This document shows positions 1-12,815 of a DNA stretch of 48,585 nt, in pieces. The notes below the pieces were generated by a model that was not told where the DNA came from, did no database searches, and was given only the letters and a program-made list of their open reading frames with translations. The first letter of the stretch is position 1, and each line of letters starts with the position of its first letter. The DNA is from a virus. Position numbers and translations under genes: made by a program. The stretch lies in the IMG/VR virus record IMGVR_UViG_3300017726_000010, positions 1 to 48,585 of that record; one strand, 5' to 3'.

Positions 1-86
1 GTACCTCTTTTTGTTTGAGATGGACTTGATGTGTCTTTAGCGCCTAGTGCTGTTAGTGTATCTATTGCTAGTTTTTCTTCGTTCAT
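1..86 (-). CDS. Partial small early protein, runs off left edge
   Basis: The reading frame starts at an ATG at position 86 and is open for 28 codons to the window edge, beginning MNEEKLAIDTLTALGAKD. It follows the 89-310 gene by 2 nt and so probably belongs to the same leftward transcript. The C-terminus is missing and I do not recognise it. It is kept because the frame is open, correctly oriented and tightly spaced like its neighbours. Confidence 0.55.
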   Translation of the reverse strand, partial: MNEEKLAIDTLTALGAKDTSSPSQTKRG

Positions 87-88
87 AT

Positions 89-310
89 TTATTGTTTTAT
101 TAGCCAATCACCCCATATTAACTCTTTTTGCGTAAGATCATAATACCATACATCGCCAAATGTACAGATAGATCTTATCTGCTCAATAGTTAAGTCAGAG
201 TAATGGTCTTTGGTTTTAAGGTTATCAATTAGCCAGTTGACAGACTGATACTCTTCAGCATTTTCTTTCATCTTGGCTTTGATATGTGGTTTTAATTTAT
301 CGTATAACAT
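89..310 (-). CDS. Hypothetical early protein, 73 aa
   Basis: A small, charged and aromatic protein with no signal peptide or membrane segment. It starts with an ATG only 5 nt downstream of a copy of the 31-nt early promoter-like element (316-346), which supports the start. The middle has a Lys/Glu-rich helix-prone stretch and the C-terminus is Trp-rich (WYYDL, WGDWLI). Position and size suggest an early host-interaction protein; this is inference and no family is recognised. Confidence 0.7.
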   Translation of the reverse strand: MLYDKLKPHIKAKMKENAEEYQSVNWLIDNLKTKDHYSDLTIEQIRSICTFGDVWYYDLTQKELIWGDWLIKQ

Positions 311-315
311 ATTTT

Positions 316-346
316 TATTATCTTATAGTGTTCGTATTTAGTTTGT
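316..346 (-). promoter_or_regulatory. Early promoter-like 31-nt element, copy 1
   Basis: On the minus strand this reads block ACAAACTAAATAC, an 11-nt spacer (GAACACTATAA), then block GATAATA. It lies 5 nt before the ATG of the 89-310 gene and touches the 3' end of the HAD phosphatase gene. The spacer reads ACACTATA, like the core of SP6/T7-class promoters. Seven other copies with the same block spacing lie to the right. Confidence 0.7.
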
Positions 347-347
347 A

Positions 348-797
348 TTACTGTAATAGTGGATTAAATATAGGTATACCATACGATTCAAACATTGCTT
401 GATTATCAATGTTATCATCAATAGATAAAACTATTTGCTCAATACTAATATCTTGTAATAGCTCTTGTAATTTAGACTCTTTCCATAAGCTAGACTTTTG
501 AAATACTTTATTTTTTTCTTTAGTTATTAATTGATCAAAAGGTATGTTGTTCTTAACCAACCACTTACGTGTAGCTATATCCATATAATATGGCCTAGCT
601 GTCATTACTATTATTTTAGTATTAAACATTTTTAGTGTTTGAGCTAAATCTACTACATGATCTTCAGGTAAGTCGTATTCAACTAGCTTAGGATCAAATA
701 ATATATTAAAATTCATGCTACCTGATTCCATTGCTTTGTTTCTACGATGCTCTAAAGTGCATAGAGTATCATCCATGTCAAATATAGCGTAATTCAT
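348..797 (-). CDS. HAD-superfamily phosphatase / nucleotidase-like
   Basis: A 149-aa protein with haloacid-dehalogenase-type phosphatase motifs. Motif I FDMDDTL lies near residues 6-12, with Asp7 as the predicted nucleophile and Asp9 as the acid/base. Motif II is VMTARP with Thr66. A Lys-rich segment near 92-100 could supply motif III. Motif IV is SIDDN with Asp126 and Asp127. These small phage HAD proteins resemble the 3'-phosphatase domain of T4 polynucleotide kinase and 5'-nucleotidases; the substrate (nucleic acid 3' end or nucleotide) cannot be decided here. Start and stop overlap the upstream 794-988 gene by 4 nt (ATGA), implying coupled translation. It is the best-defined enzyme in the early region. 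Confidence 0.85.
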   Translation of the reverse strand: MNYAIFDMDDTLCTLEHRRNKAMESGSMNFNILFDPKLVEYDLPEDHVVDLAQTLKMFNTKIIVMTARPYYMDIATRKWLVKNNIPFDQLITKEKNKVFQKSSLWKESKLQELLQDISIEQIVLSIDDNIDNQAMFESYGIPIFNPLLQ

Positions 798-988
798 ATT
801 TTTGCTTTTTTAGTCATAGATTTTACTTTATCTTTCAAGTCTTTTGAGATCATAGTATAAAAACCAGGTGCAAATATAGATGTTTTACCTTCTTTTTCTA
901 ATTCTAATATATCTTTTTCTACTTGAGCTACATAAAATTGTAGCGCATCTATAATAAGATTTGACTCCATTCCGTTAAATTTCTTCAT
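794..988 (-). CDS. Hypothetical protein, 64 aa
   Basis: A small Lys-rich protein with a predicted helical first half (residues about 8-35) and a basic C-terminus (KDKVKSMTKKAKI). It overlaps the HAD gene by 4 nt on one side and the 988-1398 gene by 1 nt on the other, so the three are probably translated together. No family recognised. Confidence 0.65.
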   Translation of the reverse strand: MKKFNGMESNLIIDALQFYVAQVEKDILELEKEGKTSIFAPGFYTMISKDLKDKVKSMTKKAKI

Positions 989-1398
989 TACTTTAGTTTT
1001 TGTATTACTTTATGTATTATTTTACCATGATTTTCATGATAAAACTCAAACCATTCGTCTTCAAATAGTTCTAAACCTGCTTCAGTTAAGTATTCTGTTG
1101 AGTCAAATACATAGTGATTATTCATTCCATCACAAACTGCTTGAAATATTAAGTCATATATGTGACCATCTAAATTTTCTACTATTTGATCAACGGTTTT
1201 ATCTACATCTGCGTGAGAAAAAGGATTTCTATAAAAGTTTTCACCTTTTAATTCAAGTTGATGTTCAGCTATTGCTTTAGCTGTAGACTCACTACATGGA
1301 TGAGTTCTGTCGTCTTTAACTTTTTCTGTTTGAATATCTAAAGCTCTTTGATACTCTTTTGATTGTCTAATTTCATTTAGCGTTCTATTTTTTGCCAT
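988..1398 (-). CDS. Hypothetical protein, 136 aa
   Basis: A soluble protein with a basic N-terminus and an acidic, aromatic C-terminal half (EDEWFEFYHENHGK), with no membrane segment. It shares 1 nt with the downstream gene and overlaps the upstream small gene by exactly 14 nt, so the first 14 nt of this gene also encode the end of its neighbour. Function unknown. Confidence 0.7.
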   Translation of the reverse strand: MAKNRTLNEIRQSKEYQRALDIQTEKVKDDRTHPCSESTAKAIAEHQLELKGENFYRNPFSHADVDKTVDQIVENLDGHIYDLIFQAVCDGMNNHYVFDSTEYLTEAGLELFEDEWFEFYHENHGKIIHKVIQKLK

Positions 1399-1543
1399 TT
1401 TTCTTAGATTTTAATTGATTAAACGCTTGTTTCAACTGTGCGATCTCAGTTTGACACTTTCTTATTTGTTCTTTATTGCCTCGATCTTGATAGAATTTTG
1501 TCCAAGAATACAAGTTTTCGAGTTGTTTTGTTATTTTATTCAT
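1385..1543 (-). CDS. Short helical protein, 52 aa
   Basis: Starts at ATG 1543 and ends with TAG at 1385. The product begins MNKITKQLENLYSWTKFYQD and continues as a Lys/Gln-rich predicted single helix. It is supported by a copy of the promoter-like element 14 nt upstream and a 14-nt overlap with the next gene. Helical, charged and without Cys pairs or membrane segments, it may act as a small binding protein; function unknown. Confidence 0.65.
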   Translation of the reverse strand: MNKITKQLENLYSWTKFYQDRGNKEQIRKCQTEIAQLKQAFNQLKSKKNGKK

Positions 1544-1557
1544 ATATTATTAATATA

Positions 1558-1588
1558 TATTATCAAATAGTGATCGTATTTAGTCTGT
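1558..1588 (-). promoter_or_regulatory. Early promoter-like 31-nt element, copy 2
   Basis: Minus strand: ACAGACTAAATAC, 11-nt spacer, GATAATA. It lies 14 nt upstream of the 1385-1543 ATG and is embedded in the last codons of the 1563-2000 gene, whose C-terminal residues LNTITI are encoded by the element. Confidence 0.7.
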
Positions 1589-2000
1589 GACATAGCATTT
1601 TTATCTTATTATACTGTAATTCAGATATTTCTGCTTTGTCTAGCGCTCGATCGAGATAGCGCTGTGCAATATCTTTGTCAACATCTAAGTAATCCATGTA
1701 AGTTTTACCTATTTGCTCGAACAAAACGTCGTTACCTACATAAGTAGTTGAGCATCCATGAAGTATTTTAGCTTTACGTTGACTAGACCCACCAGCCATA
1801 GATCTTAGTATACCGAAGCCAGCTCGTTTAGTTAACTTACTAGCTTTGTCTGCATCTTCACGTGACATAACTTGTATTGAGTTGCCTGTTTTATGGTTTA
1901 TGGTGTCGATGCAGCCAAGTTTTTGAACTGTTGAGCAGTCAACACACACGGTATAGCCAAGATCTAATCTTGCTTGTGGAATTTTATGTGTACATTTCAT
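1563..2000 (-). CDS. Hypothetical protein with possible N-terminal zinc site, 145 aa
   Basis: The N-terminal 25 residues contain Cys3 and His5 followed by a CVDC pair near residues 19-22, a spacing compatible with a small zinc ribbon. The rest is basic and helical with a Gly/Ser turn (AGGSSQRK) and a charged C-terminus. The ATG is 5 nt after a promoter-like element (2006-2036), and the 3' end is built from the next copy (1558-1588). It could bind nucleic acid, but no family is recognised. Confidence 0.7.
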   Translation of the reverse strand: MKCTHKIPQARLDLGYTVCVDCSTVQKLGCIDTINHKTGNSIQVMSREDADKASKLTKRAGFGILRSMAGGSSQRKAKILHGCSTTYVGNDVLFEQIGKTYMDYLDVDKDIAQRYLDRALDKAEISELQYNKIKMLCHRLNTITI

Positions 2001-2005
2001 GTATA

Positions 2006-2036
2006 TATTATCTATTAGCGTTCGTATTTAGTTTGT
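2006..2036 (-). promoter_or_regulatory. Early promoter-like 31-nt element, copy 3
   Basis: Minus strand: ACAAACTAAATAC, spacer GAACGCTAATA, GATAATA. It is 5 nt upstream of the ATG of the 1563-2000 gene and forms the end of the 2008-2130 reading frame. It is closest to the consensus of all eight copies. The segment AATACGA plus TAATAG resembles T7-class promoters. Confidence 0.75.
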
Positions 2037-2130
2037 GTTTTGTTTTACGAGTGTATTTCTTTTTATTTTTATACACATTAGGCTTCATAGCATCATATAT
2101 TTCTTTCATTGTTATTTTAATATGTTTCAT
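2008..2130 (-). CDS. Small very basic protein, 40 aa
   Basis: Opens at ATG 2130 and ends at TAA 2008. The product begins MKHIKITMKEIYDAMKPN and continues with a Lys/Arg/Tyr-rich tail. The same frame stays open about 26 codons upstream without an ATG, through residues GGDIKTGLVRAFRG. The true start may therefore be a TTG or other non-ATG codon, or this may be the displaced 3' part of the interrupted gene at 2181-2393. A GGGAGGAG stretch upstream is the strongest Shine-Dalgarno-like sequence I noticed in the early region. Confidence 0.45.
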   Translation of the reverse strand: MKHIKITMKEIYDAMKPNVYKNKKKYTRKTKHKLNTNANR

Positions 2131-2180
2131 ACCACGAAAAGCCCGTACCAAACCTGTTTTAATATCTCCTCCCTGAGTAT

Positions 2181-2393
2181 TTAAAACGACAGTTTAATAC
2201 GAGCTGGCCTTATTTTAAATTGTAAGGCACCATGTTCGTCAGTTGTTTGTCAACTTGTTATGTAAGTAAGGCCTTTGTAGTTGAACCAGCTTGTATAGTC
2301 GTCTGGTATATTATTAATAGTGTAGCCTTTTAATAGTTTGCCATTTAATCTTATTAGTGACCTGTCGCTTGGGTAAAATTTAATTGTTTTCAT
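2181..2393 (-). pseudogene. Small gene interrupted by one in-frame TGA
   Basis: ATG at 2393 opens a frame of 47 codons (MKTIKFYPSDRSLIRLNGKL and onward) that stops at TGA (2252-2250), then continues in frame for 22 codons to TAA at 2181. The extension (QTTDEHGALQFKIRPARIKL) has the same composition as the first part, and TGA sits where TGG (Trp) would fit. TGA is a normal stop elsewhere here, so genome-wide recoding is unlikely. A nonsense mutation, sequencing error, or read-through at the leaky UGA-C context are the options. The start overlaps the 2380-2571 gene by 14 nt. If the TGA is a true stop, the product is 47 aa. Confidence 0.5.
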
Positions 2394-2571
2394 TGAAATT
2401 ATTTACTATTTTTCTTATTCTCATACCTAATTCTTGATCATTAGGTGTACTTTTTACGTGCTCTTGTATCATTAAGAACATTACTGCTTTTAATGTTTTA
2501 GAGTCTTCCATTTCGTGTTTAGTTAATACATTATCAACATCCCACTCTTTTCCTCTGTTAATCACTGCCAT
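2380..2571 (-). CDS. Hypothetical protein, 63 aa
   Basis: A small protein with an acidic N-terminal half and a helical, Lys/Asn-rich C-terminal half; no Cys or membrane segment. Both ends overlap neighbours by exactly 14 nt, and both overlaps start ATG and end TTAA. Function unknown. Confidence 0.65.
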   Translation of the reverse strand: MAVINRGKEWDVDNVLTKHEMEDSKTLKAVMFLMIQEHVKSTPNDQELGMRIRKIVNNFNENN

Positions 2572-2728
2572 TTTCTAGATCTATTATTAGTTCACCTTCA
2601 TATATTTTTCTTGCTTGGTTTAGTGCATAAGTCCACTTTTGCCATTCTGTTCCACATTTCTGTGTCCAACCGTAGATACCATCCTGTATATCATTAGCGA
2701 TTGCTTCAATTGCTTTTTGTTCTGTCAT
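2558..2728 (-). CDS. Small Trp-rich protein, 56 aa
   Basis: ATG at 2728, TAA at 2558. The product begins MTEQKAIEAIANDIQDGIYG and contains three Trp within a dozen residues (GWTQKCGTEWQKW), then a helical acidic end. It starts 4 nt after the stop of the 2733-2954 gene and overlaps the next gene by 14 nt. Coding is supported by close packing and coherent composition; function unknown. Confidence 0.6.
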   Translation of the reverse strand: MTEQKAIEAIANDIQDGIYGWTQKCGTEWQKWTYALNQARKIYEGELIIDLENGSD

Positions 2729-2732
2729 ATTA

Positions 2733-2954
2733 TTATTTTAAATCTTCGTTAGTCATTGGTTGAAAGAGCTCACTTCTCATATACTTTACTATTTTTACTG
2801 TCATTTCATTGAATAAATTCATGTAAGCATCATTAGTTTCTGGAAAGTTTTCATGCTCTTGTAGTTCATATTCTAGCTCATTAGCTAGTTTTTCGTATAG
2901 TGAATCAACTACTCTCCAAGTAATTTCATCTTTTTCTTCGTTAGTTAGTTTCAT
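2733..2954 (-). CDS. Acidic helical hypothetical protein, 73 aa
   Basis: A Glu-rich, almost entirely helical protein (EEKDEITWRVVDSLYEKLAN and onward). The start lies 1 nt after the stop of the lipoprotein gene. The nucleotides before its ATG read GCTAATAGATAAT, identical to the downstream half of the early promoter-like element but without the AAATAC block. An acidic DNA-mimic or regulator is conceivable but unsupported. Confidence 0.65.
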   Translation of the reverse strand: MKLTNEEKDEITWRVVDSLYEKLANELEYELQEHENFPETNDAYMNLFNEMTVKIVKYMRSELFQPMTNEDLK

Positions 2955-2955
2955 A

Positions 2956-3114
2956 TTATCTATTAGCCCATGTTTGACATTCTACTTTTTGACAATAATC
3001 TTTATGGAATTTATTATCATAAACTCTATAAGAAGTTGAACAAGATGTTGCAAGTGCTATTAGTGTTATCATTAGTATTCCGAATACTATTGGAGCTATA
3101 TTATTTATTTTCAT
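2956..3114 (-). CDS. Small phage lipoprotein, 52 aa
   Basis: ATG at 3114, TAA at 2956. The N-terminus has a short basic/polar start, a hydrophobic segment (IVFGILMITLIALATSC) and a lipobox LATSC with Cys25 as the probable lipidation site. The mature part is about 27 residues with two further Cys near positions 41 and 46. Such proteins are exported and anchored in the outer or inner membrane; in phages they can act in superinfection exclusion or as o-spanins. Its location in the early cluster, far from the lysis genes, favours exclusion (inference). It overlaps the 3101-3367 gene by 14 nt. Confidence 0.7.
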   Translation of the reverse strand: MKINNIAPIVFGILMITLIALATSCSTSYRVYDNKFHKDYCQKVECQTWANR

Positions 3115-3367
3115 TATTTATTTTATTTATTAGTTCGTCTATTTCGTCGTAGTTAAAAGTAGAATAGACTTTGTCTACTTGTTTTTGTACATAGTTGTAC
3201 GTAATTTCTTTTAGTGGTCTGCCAAACAGTGATACAATAAGATTTCTTGGGTTCCAACCATAAGGTGATCTAGTTTTATTATATATTAGTAATTTACCTG
3301 TGCTGTCGCCGTAATCTATGATTGTTAAGTTGTCTGTTTGTATATATTTCACATTTTTATTATCCAT
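3101..3367 (-). CDS. Hypothetical protein, 88 aa, uncertain start
   Basis: A soluble protein with a beta-prone N-terminal half (YIQTDNLTIIDYGDS) and a helical acidic C-terminus. The ATG at 3367 lies inside promoter-like element copy 4, at element positions 22-24. If transcription begins near the downstream block, this ATG would be missing from the mRNA and an in-frame GTG five codons later (3352) becomes the likelier start. Function unknown. Confidence 0.65.
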   Translation of the reverse strand: MDNKNVKYIQTDNLTIIDYGDSTGKLLIYNKTRSPYGWNPRNLIVSLFGRPLKEITYNYVQKQVDKVYSTFNYDEIDELINKINNENK

Positions 3368-3388
3368 TAGCGATTGTATTTAGTTTGT
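3358..3388 (-). promoter_or_regulatory. Early promoter-like 31-nt element, copy 4
   Basis: Minus strand: ACAAACTAAATAC, spacer AATCGCTAATG, GATAATA. It spans the 3' end of the 3367-3645 gene and the annotated start of the 3101-3367 gene. Block spacing is identical to the other copies. Confidence 0.7.
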
Positions 3389-3645
3389 ATATTATTTGTT
3401 TCAAATTTTATAATTAAATCTTCAGCTTGATTTAAATGTTCTAAGTAAGAATTAGCTATTGTTGAATTTAATCTATTATTATATAAATCCCAAGCGATCC
3501 ATTCTTTTACATCTTGAATATTACCTAAAGCTTCGCTTAATAAATATTCATTACTTTCTACTGAGTACACTACTGTACCATCTTTTTTAGCTGGTGATAC
3601 TAGTAAAGAACTAGCTATTCCAATTGTTAATATAATTTTATTCAT
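3367..3645 (-). CDS. Secreted hypothetical protein with signal peptide, 92 aa
   Basis: The N-terminus (MNKIILTIGIASSLLVSPAKK) has the n-, h- and c-region pattern of a signal peptide with possible cleavage after SPA. The mature part, about 73 residues, is acidic and helical. An exported protein in an early cluster suggests action on the host envelope, such as blocking other phages; this is inference. It overlaps the upstream gene by 4 nt and the downstream gene by 1 nt. Confidence 0.7.
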   Translation of the reverse strand: MNKIILTIGIASSLLVSPAKKDGTVVYSVESNEYLLSEALGNIQDVKEWIAWDLYNNRLNSTIANSYLEHLNQAEDLIIKFETNNIQTKYNR

Positions 3646-3842
3646 AGTATTTTATTTAGTATTTCATACACATCATCTTGTTGAGTTTTATTTAGTGTCA
3701 TAAAAACACCATTAGCTTCACCAGGATAATCGAGTACATGGTTTATACATTGTTGAGTCATTTCTGCTTCATGAACAGTTTTGTCCATTTCTGCAAAGGC
3801 TTTTGACCAAGACCAATTTGAAGGATTATTAGTATTATACAT
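3642..3842 (-). CDS. Hypothetical protein, 66 aa
   Basis: A small acidic protein with a Trp/Asn-rich start (NNPSNWSWSKAF) and a helical remainder. It overlaps the signal-peptide protein gene by 4 nt, so the two are probably co-translated. No family recognised. Confidence 0.65.
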   Translation of the reverse strand: MYNTNNPSNWSWSKAFAEMDKTVHEAEMTQQCINHVLDYPGEANGVFMTLNKTQQDDVYEILNKIL

Positions 3843-3847
3843 AGTTG

Positions 3848-4132
3848 TTATTTTTTATAGTTTAAAATTCCTAGTTCTTCACATAGTTTATCAGTTTCAC
3901 TTTGATAATCTTCTTGTTTCCAAAATGGAGCTAACCACTTTGGGTTGTTTACCATTTCATCATGACACCATTGTTTCTCATTGTCACCAAGTTGATAATA
4001 GTGCATATCAAATTCTGACATAGCTATTTTATCTATTGTAGTATTTAAATTATTCATTTTTATTATTTTATTTAGTAACTGAGTGAAGAATCGAACCTCA
4101 CTACTAACCATTTCAGTTATGTGCTCAGTCAT
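3848..4132 (-). CDS. Hypothetical protein, 94 aa or 69 aa from internal Met
   Basis: The long form starts at 4132, but its first 20 or so codons overlap a sequence that looks like the 3' end of a tRNA gene. An internal ATG at 4057, preceded by an A/T-only leader (AATAAAATAATAAAA) like other starts here, gives 69 aa beginning MNNLNTTIDKIAMSE. I favour the shorter form. The C-terminal part is acidic and Trp-rich (EKQWCHDEMVNNPKW). Function unknown. Confidence 0.6.
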   Translation of the reverse strand: MTEHITEMVSSEVRFFTQLLNKIIKMNNLNTTIDKIAMSEFDMHYYQLGDNEKQWCHDEMVNNPKWLAPFWKQEDYQSETDKLCEELGILNYKK

Positions 4133-4138
4133 ATATTC
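4076..4138 (-). other. tRNA-3'-end-like sequence (T arm plus acceptor strand)
   Basis: On the minus strand, TGAGG-TTCGATT-CTTCA forms a five-pair T stem with a canonical seven-base T loop, followed by CTCAGTT and A as a 3' acceptor strand and discriminator. A strand GACTGAG able to pair with that acceptor lies only about 48 nt upstream, too close for a whole tRNA: no D arm or anticodon arm fits between them. It may be a degenerate tRNA, or a tRNA-derived attachment site acquired from a host. No integrase is visible in the window. Confidence 0.35.
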
Positions 4139-4186
4139 ATTATGTTTATACTCTCTAAAGTATGACTATCAACTAAGAGTTTTATA

Positions 4187-4217
4187 TATTATCTAAGAGT
4201 AGTTGTATTTACTCTGT
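4187..4217 (-). promoter_or_regulatory. Early promoter-like 31-nt element, copy 5
   Basis: Minus strand: ACAGAGTAAATAC, 11-nt spacer, GATAATA. The TAA inside the first block is the stop codon of the 4209-4448 gene. Downstream lies a leader of about 54 nt (to 4132) or 129 nt (to 4057) that contains a short hairpin (ATACT/AGTAT) and the tRNA-like sequence. Confidence 0.65.
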
Positions 4218-4448
4218 AATTTCTGCTAATTCTCTACAGAATTTTGGAACAGTATTACTATTTGTATAAGATTTGTACTGTTGAAAACAAGGCATACTTT
4301 CAAACTTTTCTTGAAATGTAGTATATACTTCATCATGATCATAAGTGAATGTTTGATCTTTTTTGTTAGTAAAAGTAATTATTGTATTATTACCTATTAA
4401 TGATTTTCTGATTACAAATCTTTTTGTTGTTAGTTTATTATTTGACAT
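4209..4448 (-). CDS. Hypothetical protein, 79 aa
   Basis: A basic, Thr/Asn-rich protein with probable beta strands in the first half (RFVIRKSLIGNNTIITFTNK) and an acidic helical end. Promoter-like element copy 6 lies 40 nt upstream of the ATG. Function unknown. Confidence 0.65.
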   Translation of the reverse strand: MSNNKLTTKRFVIRKSLIGNNTIITFTNKKDQTFTYDHDEVYTTFQEKFESMPCFQQYKSYTNSNTVPKFCRELAEITE

Positions 4449-4488
4449 AGTTATATTTTTTATTTATTTAGTTTAGTTTATATATTAT

Positions 4489-4519
4489 TATTATCTGTTT
4501 GTTATTGTATTTAGTTTGT
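4489..4519 (-). promoter_or_regulatory. Early promoter-like 31-nt element, copy 6
   Basis: Minus strand: ACAAACTAAATAC, spacer AATAACAAACA, GATAATA. The outer blocks are perfect but the spacer differs from copies 1-4, showing that the blocks, not the middle, are under constraint. It lies 40 nt upstream of the 4209-4448 gene. Confidence 0.7.
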
Positions 4520-4522
4520 AAA

Positions 4523-4762
4523 TTATTTTTGATGTATTAATTGTGAGTTAATTGTTTTGTTAAAAGTAATATTATTTGTATAATATTTTAAAGTTTGTTT
4601 TAATGAATTTAAATTAATGTAAGTGTAAGATTTAAATTTTATAATTTGATTAAGTGGTATATTTTGAAAATATGTTGGTAAGTTATGAGGTTGAAAAGGT
4701 ATGTATATATTATTATTTAGTTTTAATATATGTAATGAGTTGATTTTTAATTTATTAGTCAT
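4523..4762 (-). CDS. Asn/Ile-rich hypothetical protein, 79 aa
   Basis: Composition is extreme (Asn, Ile, Lys, Leu, Tyr), following the high A/T content of this stretch. No membrane segment or motif. It is supported as a gene by an element copy 13 nt before the ATG and another just after the stop. Confidence is lower than for neighbours because the low-complexity composition could mislead. Confidence 0.55.
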   Translation of the reverse strand: MTNKLKINSLHILKLNNNIYIPFQPHNLPTYFQNIPLNQIIKFKSYTYINLNSLKQTLKYYTNNITFNKTINSQLIHQK

Positions 4763-4775
4763 ATTTTTTTTATTA

Positions 4776-4806
4776 TATTATCTATTTAAGTTAGTATTTG
4801 GTTTGT
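4776..4806 (-). promoter_or_regulatory. Early promoter-like 31-nt element, copy 7
   Basis: Minus strand: ACAAACCAAATAC, spacer TAACTTAAATA, GATAATA. It is 13 nt upstream of the 4523-4762 ATG. The 110 nt on its upstream side (4807-4916) hold no gene I can support. Confidence 0.65.
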
Positions 4807-4916
4807 AGTTTGTGAGTGTATGTTTGTTTATTAGTTTAATTTAGTTAGTAGGTACAACACTTGTCCTCTCTATTATTTACAATAGTGAATGTTAAAATTA
4901 GTTTATATTTAGTTAA

Positions 4917-5165
4917 TTAAATAATAATGTAGTCTAATTCTAGCTCATCAGTATGAATTGAATAGTTAATATTATGTTGATTTAATAGTTGGATAGTTTC
5001 AGGCCAATTTGTTGTGTATTCAAATAGAATGAAAGTATTGGATTTAAATTTAGACATGTCAATATTATTTTCTTCAAAGAAATTATCTGAGTCAATTATG
5101 AAATTAATTTCTGATTGATTGTTTAGAATTTTATTTAATTGATTGTATTTTAAATTAATAGTCAT
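4917..5165 (-). CDS. Acidic hypothetical protein, 82 aa
   Basis: The first gene of the leftward cluster. The protein alternates predicted strands and helices (NFIIDSDNFF, NTFILFEYTTNW) and ends in an acidic hydrophobic tail (DELELDYIII), suggesting a small folded alpha/beta domain. Element copy 8 lies 34 nt upstream. As the gene nearest the divergent region it may be among the first expressed (inference). No family recognised. Confidence 0.65.
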   Translation of the reverse strand: MTINLKYNQLNKILNNQSEINFIIDSDNFFEENNIDMSKFKSNTFILFEYTTNWPETIQLLNQHNINYSIHTDELELDYIII

Positions 5166-5628
5166 ATTATATATTTAAGTTATTTAGTTTATTTGTATAT
5201 ATTATCTTATTAGCATCGTATTTAGTTTTTAAATTTAGAAAACTTAAAACATAAACTATAATTTTAAATTTAATATATATTAATATAAGAAAAGCTAAAC
5301 GTAACTGTCTGGAAACCAAAACATTAAGCGGACTCGGCCAAAACAAAACCGTTTTGTAATTAGTTGATAGTCAGGGAGATAGGGGCCCAACACCTAAGTT
5401 TTATATATCTTACAACTGTGACAATAGGGTGTTAAACCTTATATAATAAAAGGCTTATGTCACACTAATTAATAACATTATTATTTCCACTATACTTTTA
5501 ATTATACTTACTATTTTATTTATTTTATCTAATTTATCCATATATATTATATGCTAATAATTTCTTTTGTTTAAGTAAAAATGAGTGTTTTTCTGTGATA
5601 TACTAATTTAAGACTAAAACTATAAATT
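5166..5628. other. Divergent intergenic region with potential RNA structure
   Basis: 463 nt separate the leftward early genes from the rightward late genes, with no supported ORF. Apart from promoter copy 8, it contains an island clearly less A/T-rich than its flanks (about 5290-5465). Visible pairings are a perfect 7-bp stem TGTGACA (5417-5423) with TGTCACA (5458-5464), enclosing ATAGGG/CCTTAT (5424-5429 with 5437-5442). An alternative pairs AACACC (5389-5394) with GGTGTT (5428-5433), and CAAAAC/GTTTTG forms a hairpin near 5340-5355. A GGGGCCC run lies at 5382-5388. It could hold a noncoding RNA, an origin, or late transcription control; the sequence does not decide. Confidence 0.5.
5200..5230 (-). 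promoter_or_regulatory. Early promoter-like 31-nt element, copy 8
   Basis: Minus strand: AAAAACTAAATAC, spacer GATGCTAATAA, GATAATA. It is the rightmost copy, 34 nt upstream of the first leftward gene (4917-5165), and marks the start of the leftward transcription domain. No copy was found to the right of it on either strand. Confidence 0.7.
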
Positions 5629-5874
5629 ATGGCATATCAACTAGGAGATAAATCAGCAATGAGAATGGACGCAGTGGCCTCAGGAGAGCAGTCACTAGAG
5701 TTTGGCCCAGGTGGAGGATTCCTAGGCGGAATATTCGGAATTGGCGGAGGAAAGAAAAAGAAGAAGAATAAGTCTTTTAAATCTTGTAATGGTTTCTACA
5801 AGGACGGGCAATGTTATAGAAACAGGAAAGCCTATAGAGAAACTAAAAAATACAACAAGAAAAAGAATTATTAA
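5629..5874 (+). CDS. Small Gly- and Lys-rich protein, 81 aa
   Basis: The first gene of the rightward domain. A Gly-rich hydrophobic middle (FGPGGGFLGGIFGIGGG) is followed by a run of Lys and a basic, Tyr-rich tail with Cys at two positions. The Gly-rich patch could be a membrane-active or flexible linker segment. The sequence before the ATG (ATTTAAGACTAAAACTATAAATT) is A/T-only apart from isolated G/C and faintly recalls phage promoters. Function unknown; perhaps a small virion component. Confidence 0.65.
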   Translation: MAYQLGDKSAMRMDAVASGEQSLEFGPGGGFLGGIFGIGGGKKKKKNKSFKSCNGFYKDGQCYRNRKAYRETKKYNKKKNY

Positions 5875-5876
5875 AC

Positions 5877-6119
5877 ATGTCTAAATTATCGGCTAAAGCT
5901 AGAGCAGCTAAAAAGAAGAGAGATCTAGCGTATGCTAAGACAGATGATAGGCGCAGAAAGAAAGCGCACAACCAGAGGGAAAGAAGAAAAGCAGCTAAGA
6001 AGCATGGTAAAAGATGGTTAATAGGAAAAGACTATGACCACAAAGATAAAAGATTTGAATCAGTGAAGAAGAACAGAGGCAACGACGGTAAGGGAACTAA
6101 AAAAGAACGTAAAAAATAA
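5877..6119 (+). CDS. Highly basic small protein, 80 aa
   Basis: Nearly half of the residues are Lys or Arg, with no hydrophobic core except a short segment (RWLIGKDYDHKDKRF). Such proteins are usually nucleic-acid-binding or disordered. It lies 2 nt after the preceding gene and 11 nt before the first fibre-like gene. A DNA-condensing or virion-associated role is possible but not shown. Confidence 0.6.
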   Translation: MSKLSAKARAAKKKRDLAYAKTDDRRRKKAHNQRERRKAAKKHGKRWLIGKDYDHKDKRFESVKKNRGNDGKGTKKERKK

Positions 6120-11732: not shown

Positions 11733-12815
11733 ATGGCGATAATATATAATTACCCTATAAAGACAGAGGTATCAACAAGCGATCAGATCTTAATATCTGA
11801 CTCACAAGATGAGTTTGAGACAAAAGTAATATCAGTAGGTTCTTTACCTGGTGTTGCTGGAAGTGTATCTAGTTTTACCGGAGGTAACACGGGATTACTT
11901 CCTAACACTGCTGAGTTTGGAGATATTGTTTTGTCAGGGGTATTATCAATATCTGCCGGTGGCACAGAAGCAACAACAGCGCAAGAAGCTATAAATAAAA
12001 TATCAGCAGTCAGTGAAGCGCCTGTTAACAGTGTCTTAACAAGTAACGGTACTAATGCTATCTGGAAAGCAATTCCAAACAACCTTTTAATTACATCACC
12101 AAATGGCTCAGTTTACGAGATAACTGTTGATGATGACGGTAATTTAGGTACTATTCTTCAAAATGATGGTAATGGCGACGGTGATGGCGATACTGGTAAT
12201 GGAGATGGTGATACTGGCAGCGGTGATGGCGATACTGGTAATGGCGACGGCGATACTGGTAATGGCGACGGCGATACAGGCAATGGAGACACAGGTGACG
12301 GTGACGGAGATACAGGTAATGGAGATGGCGACGGTGACACAGGTGATGGGGATAGTGATGGTAATGATGGAGACACAGGCAGCGGTGATGGTGATACCGG
12401 AAGTGGTGATGGTGATAAAGATCCAGTGGATGGTGACGGAGACACTCAAGACCCAGACCCAGACCCAGACCCAGATCCAAATGATCCAATAGACGATGAT
12501 AAAGATCCAGATCCAGATCCAGATCCAGATCCAGATCCAGATCCAAATGATCCTATAGATGACGATAAAAATCCAGATCCAATTGACCCGGATCCAACAG
12601 ATCCTATAGATGACGGAGACGGTGATGCTATTGTTGACGATAATAAGGGCGATGGTGATACAGTAGTAGATCCAGACCCAGACCCAAATGACCCAATTGT
12701 TGATGACAATAAAGGTGGCGATGACAACACAGGTGGTGACACAGGCAGTGGCGACACTGGCAGTGATACCGGCAGCGGTGACAGCAACGACGCTGACAGC
12801 AACAAAGGGGGATAA
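11733..12815 (+). CDS. Fibre-like protein with very acidic Asp-Gly / Asp-Pro repeat tail, 360 aa
   Basis: Residues 1-130 resemble fibre protein A at the N-terminus ([20 protein letters not shown] and a [20 protein letters not shown] linker). From about residue 140 to the end the protein is low complexity: first a six-residue-period GDGDTGN/S array, then DPDPDPDP runs separated by NDPIDDDK, then a shorter GDTGSGD array. Nearly all charges are acidic. Such repeats can bind calcium, as in thrombospondin-type-3 and RTX-like proteins, or act as an entropic brush. The gene replaces a normal receptor-binding tip with this tail. Long ORFs on the other frames here are shadows of the repeats. Confidence 0.7.
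12165..12810 (+). repeat. Coding minisatellite, GAT-rich
   Basis: The DNA consists of imperfect units such as GGCGATACTGGTAATGGC (18 nt) and GATCCA/GACCCA (6 nt) in several blocks. Synonymous third-base variation between units shows that the protein repeat is maintained while the DNA drifts. Repeat copy number probably varies by recombination or slippage. Confidence 0.75.

Follow-up and report, generated by a model that had tools for sequence, protein, structure and literature searches.

What kind of element lies between the two diverging gene sets of this phage, a structured RNA or a site in the DNA from which transcription is controlled? The window analyzed here is a 48,585-base viral record from a phage with terminase and portal genes, both resembling those of Flavobacterium elemo phages, Cellulophaga phages and the uncultured MW202828. 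Small leftward genes fill approximately positions 1-5165, and rightward genes, including those for the terminase, the portal and other virion proteins, run from 5629. According to the list of open reading frames, the first gene on the leftward, early side encodes 82 aa (4917-5165, minus strand, ATG at 5165) and the first on the rightward, late side encodes 81 aa (5629-5874, plus strand, ATG at 5629). Within the leftward block, the plus strand of 4400-4860 is nearly free of C (10 C in 461 bases and none in 4500-4649, against a window median of 67 C per 461 bases), so that the leftward gene at 4523-4762 has an almost G-free message; a relative, L009, has a similar C-poor stretch near 3900-4200. 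Among the rightward genes, 11733-12815 encodes a protein whose long tail is of low complexity and consists of GDGDTG and DPDPDP repeats.

A preliminary description had singled out 5240-5470 as a less A/T-rich island without ORF, carrying a perfect 7-bp stem, a GGGGCCC run and alternative hairpins, and had read it as a structured RNA or control region. The perfect inverted repeat is present (TGTGACA at 5417-5423 and TGTCACA at 5458-5464). The island exists by local standards only: the GC content of 5285-5475 is 34.6%, compared to a local mean of 21.4% (191-nt windows across 4000-5629), but that of the whole window is 33.3%. No ATG-initiated ORF of at least 50 aa was found, although a 59-aa ORF with a TTG start overlaps the region on the minus strand (5167-5346); a search for tRNA found none. 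The GGGGCCC run lies at 5382-5388 but is not kept among the near relatives listed in the alignment, which do retain the dyad described below. The less A/T-rich stretch that holds this run and an AACACC (5285-5400, plus strand) is loosely alike among relatives and falls outside the conserved dyad. Taken alone, the features of 5240-5470 are no more than chance would provide. Perfect 7-bp inverted repeats within 80 bp occur twice there, against a shuffle mean of 2.4, and 304 of 500 shuffles contain as many; the folding energy of 5280-5475 is ordinary on the plus strand (z = -0.12) and on the minus strand (z = -0.86).

A dyad conserved among related records

Related DNA was obtained by fetching 80 loci from viral contigs through a homologue of the product of the window's second rightward gene (80 aa). 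At the nhmmer inclusion threshold, 18 of the 81 loci that made up the search file had a match to window 5285-5475, and comparison revealed a common core, GTGACAwwAG....TTA-spacer-TA..A.AGGCwwTGTCAC. A profile then detected more copies in many further loci, and the search profile was built from 74 distinct copies scoring at least 24 bits. Two alignments were hand-picked against near-duplicates: A1, consisting of the window and 14 relatives, and A2, consisting of 40 copies, the window's included. A sequence-only model built from the 40 copies of A2 was then run at a cut-off of E <= 0.01 against 48 records, namely the window and 47 mostly longer records from the 80 fetched loci. The dyad was found in 44 of the 48, window included, and it is because of this conservation that it rises above chance. 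The four records without it (G001, G012, G038 and G039) also lack the helix-turn-helix gene discussed below, and of these only G001 (68 kb) extends far on the early side. A second set gave the dyad in all 30 records, with 2 to 12 matches per record when both strands are counted; as this set had previously been fetched through the helix-turn-helix gene, its 30/30 does not constitute an independent test.

Window 5150-5900 gave no match at the DNA level against phage records, the 80-aa protein found none there, and the first late protein, used as a scan query, recovered no relatives. Among annotated relatives, no dyad match was convincing, the best having an E value of 1.2, across the whole sequences of MW202828, elemoA and phi40:1 and the fetched stretches of phi13:2 (44 of 72 kb) and Gundel_1 (50 of 79 kb). 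An exact 16-mer scan gave a single match, in L082, which was left out on account of its unrelated setting.

Two arms: helix or half-sites

The dyad occupies window positions 5415-5466, 52 bp in all, as two 20-bp arms around a 12-bp spacer. Alignment A2 and arm-by-arm base counts define the left arm (5415-5434) as a half-site AGTGYGACRWTAG-N4-YTA and the right arm (5447-5466) as its reverse complement, while the spacer (5435-5446) varies in sequence and length among relatives. The window dyad matches the model at 5414-5467 with an E value of 1.4e-13, the window copy being itself one of the 40 from which the model was made. Across these 40 copies, both arms invariably have G-A-C at arm positions 6-8, G at 13 and T-A at 19-20. 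Positions that are free to vary do so alike in both arms, position 9 being A or G, position 5 T or C, and position 17 mostly A, G or C. The arms differ at positions 14-15, where the left has G or C followed by T, G or C and the right, read in reverse, has C followed almost always by C; the dyad is therefore imperfect. Such shared base preferences are the pattern expected of two like half-sites for one protein, and a dyad of two like half-sites is what the operator of an autoregulated helix-turn-helix protein would be expected to contain. Outer length ranges from 44 to 48 bp among 28 strict copies, so that arm spacing varies by several bp and the arms do not keep a single rotational phase. This would be odd for a rigid dimer; it could be accounted for by a flexibly tethered helix-turn-helix, by bending of the DNA or by two dimers that bind separately.

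An RNA stem and a DNA operator can be told apart by asking whether the arms change jointly or independently. The structured RNA or switch-like leader that the preliminary description had favored, in which the dyad and the GGGGCCC stretch would form alternative hairpins, can draw on several observations: six of the seven arm pairs are invariant in the window and 14 relatives, the arms of A2 pair in 77.6% of cells, compared to 24.5-45.3% in slid registers, and a promoter-like element directly before the dyad would have the dyad transcribed. In-register pairing far above that of slid registers shows that the arms are complementary, as they are in any dyad. When the copies were shuffled, the picture reversed. 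Mean pairing in the shuffles was 79.4%, and 499 of 500 shuffles paired as highly as the real alignment; double changes affected 2 pairs, against 5.7 in the shuffles, and the A2 covariation score was reached by 495 of 500 shuffles. Where column 12 (A or G) faces column 50 (T or C), 10 of the 40 copies are unpaired, and only the combination of A opposite C fails. The alternative pairing, between AACACC (5389-5394) and GGTGTT (5428-5433), is present in the window and not conserved in the 14 relatives, where, with the window, 52.2% of cells pair and no double changes occur, against 1.0 in the shuffles. RNAalifold predicted no pair with a double change, and Rfam gave no match, either for the window at gathering score or for 5150-5640 at E values up to 10. 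Thus neither compensatory changes beyond those of shuffles, in the dyad or in the alternative pairing, nor membership of a known RNA family was found, and with fold energies that are ordinary as well, we rejected the structured RNA on the folding of both strands, Rfam, RNAalifold and the pair counts; we regard it as very unlikely. The preliminary description is in this respect only partly confirmed in its observations and partly supported in its interpretation: it had seen a real feature and most likely misread its nature.

Positions of the copies and promoter-like motifs

In the divergent early/late region the dyad precedes the first rightward gene, and many relatives have a second, at times a third, dyad in the leftward early region. 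A second copy in G014, at 503-554, lies near the far end of that record. The 12 records of at least 61 kb that contain the helix-turn-helix gene have dyads at two to four places each: two in G008, G009, G032 and G043, three in G013, G018, G021, G022 and G029, and four in G016, G019 and G024.

Directly upstream of the window dyad lies a putative promoter element, TATATATCTTA (5402-5412, plus strand), at the same place as TATATATCT, TATATTTA or TATATTTG in several relatives; TATATATCT or TATATTT(A/G), which some relatives have immediately ahead of the dyad, appears promoter-like too. On the early side, a minus-strand motif resembling an early promoter, AAAACTAAATACGA...GATAATATATA, is predicted at 5196-5229, and similar motifs stand before other leftward genes of the window. 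Repeats of a motif like ACAAACTAAATACGA...GATAATATATA, which looks like an early promoter, occur on the minus strand before several leftward genes, in the regions 311-347, 2001-2379, 4449-4522, 4763-4916 and 5166-5414. On the late side, a block that may be a late promoter, AAAAATGAGTGTTTTTCTGTGATATACT (5577-5604, plus strand), has a near-identical counterpart after the dyad of L009, and variants of it lie 9-33 bp after the dyads of many relatives. Motifs predicted from sequence to be promoter-like are therefore present on both sides of the window dyad, the early-type motif ending approximately 208 bp to its left and the late-type block starting approximately 110 bp to its right. The other half of the preliminary description, a control region between divergent gene sets, fared well: the conserved dyad has an early-promoter-like motif on one side and a late-promoter-like block on the other, and copies occur at other control points.

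Motif flanks were counted for 79 distinct copies, leaving out minus-oriented and duplicate copies. The late-type box was defined as [TG]A[TC]G[CT]GT[AG]AT[AT].TATA, matched with up to two changes no more than 55 bp to the right of the dyad, and the early-type motif as ATATATTATC, matched with up to one change no more than 115 bp to its left. A late-type box accompanied 28 of the 79 copies and an early-type motif 20, with no copy having both, compared to 0.6% and 5.7%, respectively, of random positions; the other 31, the window's among them, have neither inside the set distances. Since the motifs were defined from these same flanks, the counts show the arrangement and are not independent proof of it.

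Several early-region copies (L018:1920-1973, L030:2417-2471, L027:1173-1225 and similar ones) are preceded by A runs and followed by T runs, and such copies may double as two-way terminators. That the dyad as such is a bidirectional intrinsic terminator is nonetheless extremely unlikely, because the window copy ends in CACACTAATTAATAAC and lacks a T run, as do many divergent-region copies, because the middle of the stem is often mismatched, and because neither the gap between diverging genes nor a start codon is a place where one would expect a terminator. The combination of a stable stem and a U run is thus absent from the window copy, T runs being confined to some of the others.

A helix-turn-helix gene at further copies

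Copies deeper in the early region point to a protein. In nine of ten such cases the dyad and the start of a gene encoding approximately 206 aa overlap; in the remaining one, G018, the dyad is located approximately 1.1 kb upstream of that gene. The protein has a C-terminal helix-turn-helix (HTH). In four members examined with Pfam, HTH_11 matched with E values of 7.9e-5 to 0.043, all below the curated cut-off, and no other family rose above cut-off in these four; across 54 members, HTH_11 reached an E value of 0.01 or better in 46. A structure model computed from the 54 sequences has a mean pLDDT of 89.9 and a pTM of 0.82, a first model having been poor. Structural alignment matches its residues 147-205 to DtxR-type regulators, sigma region 4 and other proteins with Z scores up to 5.8; these alignments would indicate an HTH and no more, and matches with Z below 8 may reflect only a common arrangement. 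The HTH_11 matches and model residues 147-205 together provide the DNA-binding domain that a regulator should have. Foldseek returned no solved structure at E <= 0.001 and one viral model, A0A516MIB4, at 2.4e-10. A sequence search of solved structures gave at best a designed protein (E 0.0035) and weaker matches, and PHROGs gave nothing better than a family of unknown function (E 0.0016) in three members.

The dyad profile used here came from early- and late-region copies only, and matches at the HTH gene are therefore out of sample. Across the 48 records the HTH gene is complete in 16 and present as a fragment at the contig edge in one. All 16 complete genes have a dyad, lying across the gene start in 14 and approximately 1.1 kb upstream in two (G018 and G025). 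On the same stretch, the nearest other copy is approximately 5-9 kb away and the copy at the early/late junction up to approximately 11 kb. A scan with the protein alone found 337 relatives, and the 80 best-matching loci were examined. A dyad (E <= 0.05) was present in 79 of these 80, at the gene start in 76 and approximately 1.1 kb upstream in three, with E values from 4.4e-13 to 0.013; the single miss, L198, is a locus that begins inside the gene. Counted among the 76 are L189 and L190, where only the right half of the dyad matches at the gene start, and in L168, L170, L174, L183 and L185 the best score was obtained in reverse. By hand comparison, 13 of the best 80 loci lie in contigs already met in the first fetch; the remaining 67 gave 66 with a dyad at the gene start and one that begins inside the gene. 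Conservation of the right arm at the gene start is partly driven by the protein, part of that arm being coding. Of 10 loci from genome contigs, 8 have a dyad at the gene start, one of them weakly (E 0.0019), and the two misses are partial, distant matches. These contigs come from mixed metagenome bins, several of them Bacteroidota, which is only a hint at hosts. A site at the regulator gene's own start is hence a property observed in relatives, as the window ends before the gene.

The dyad is also found in records without the gene. No HTH gene match was obtained in 27 of the 44 dyad-bearing records, window included; on the early side, these 27 stop within approximately 7.4 kb of the 80-aa gene. 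Gene-less records of considerable length are among them (G004, 59 kb; G046, 55 kb), and a search of their far ends gave no match, which speaks against an operator for this protein. A relative of the window's early protein at 1563-2000 is present in 13 records, all with the dyad, and in all 10 of the 13 that were tested the terminase is 80-88% identical to the window's. (In two records, G041 and G044, the terminase match is split into two pieces, which may reflect an insertion, a frameshift or an assembly error.) Five of the 13 have the HTH gene, each with a dyad at the gene start. In G085 and G084 the gene lies 7.1 and 7.4 kb, respectively, from the nearest other dyad on the same stretch; in G079, G080 and G081 the gene and the other copy sit at the two ends of the contig, a distance of 7-11 kb should the contig be closed. 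The remaining eight end within approximately 7.8 kb of the junction dyad on the gene side, where the window has 5.4 kb.

We conclude that the dyad is probably the operator of an autoregulated phage HTH transcription factor at an early/late switch. This reading draws on what was computed directly, namely the conservation of the dyad, its like half-sites, the lack of RNA covariation, the promoter-like neighbors and the linkage to the start of the HTH gene. A leftward early gene, off the end of the window and in relatives at a distance of roughly 5-11 kb, would produce the protein of approximately 206 aa, which would bind both 20-bp arms of the 52-bp dyad. At its own gene it would sit across the start codon and most likely act as a repressor, shutting the gene. 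At the junction copy, and at an early-promoter copy where one is present, it would set the moment at which transcription passes from the leftward early genes to the rightward late genes, and may act on the late genes with either sign.

A gene directly after the HTH gene may contribute. In G024 (L092) the HTH gene is followed by a sigma-factor-like gene (phrog_351, E 4.6e-21; L092:3827-4588) and then by Erf-like and exonuclease-like genes, and a sigma-like ORF lies near in 76 of the 80 protein-fetched loci, three of the four misses being short loci. Judged by this resemblance its product is a candidate late sigma factor, and it perhaps acts jointly with the HTH protein in the change-over. A more elaborate proposal, which we put forward only tentatively and think rather less likely to hold than to fail, is that a hitherto undescribed family of switch proteins with a C-terminal HTH binds unusually long, variably spaced dyads at two to four places over approximately 10 kb (its own gene, an early promoter and the early/late junction), that these are looped into one early-to-late switch, and that the phage sigma factor encoded just after takes over the late promoters.

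Binding at a start codon could also take place in RNA. Some phage translational repressors block translation by binding a hairpin at the start codon, and in most loci the right arm of the dyad contains the start codon of the HTH gene, so that the protein might bind its own transcribed hairpin and block translation. Copies in the early and divergent regions lie away from start codons, the arms show no pairing preference, and the C-terminal domain resembles DNA-binding HTH domains, all of which make such an RNA operator most improbable. The presence of several copies per genome and the resemblance of the HTH to the resolvase HTH (HTH_7) would instead suit a replication or recombination site, such as an origin, partition or resolution site, for some other protein. 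Here the copies lie near promoter-like motifs and at the start of a regulator-like gene, their spacing varies, and no recombinase catalytic domain was found among the Pfam matches listed, so that we give this explanation hardly any weight against a transcriptional operator.

A phage operator with an autoregulated regulator is an already known kind of system. Repressors of the lambda Cro/CI kind are autoregulated HTH proteins with operators at their own gene and at divergent control promoters. By analogy, the HTH protein proposed here would likewise have operators at its own gene and in a divergent control region, but with a 52-bp dyad, 20-bp arms, variable spacing and copies kilobases apart. 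In phi29, protein p4 binds sequence-specifically to imperfect inverted repeats between early and late promoters (sites CTTTTT-15 bp-AAAATG), repressing early and activating late transcription (PMC3100819). The dyad would be alike in placing imperfect inverted repeats between early and late promoters, here predicted from promoter-like motifs, whereas the p4 sites are shorter and the present protein, of approximately 206 aa, carries its HTH at the C-terminus and has one of the dyads where its own gene begins; the likeness would be an analogy of layout only, and we do not claim membership of a p4-like family. A literature search of limited depth found no published account of gene timing in this phage group or of this switch. 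Relatives of the HTH protein are common in viral contigs, with 337 in one scan. Through the dyad, an uncharacterized protein family gains a likely function and target, together with a simple test that needs one protein and one 52-bp DNA.

Two annotated relatives share the genome layout. Elemovirus elemoA (NC_055852) and Cellulophaga phi40:1 (KC821612) have related terminase and portal genes and diverging leftward and rightward blocks, but differ in having no convincing dyad, and a regulator match, weak and partial, was seen only in the gp57 region of elemoA. The protein encoded in that region (L085:20131-21036), close to where the rightward genes begin, has a weak likeness to the central part of the HTH protein, with E values of 2.5e-5, 1.1e-4 and 0.028 in three comparisons, and is possibly a distant counterpart of it.
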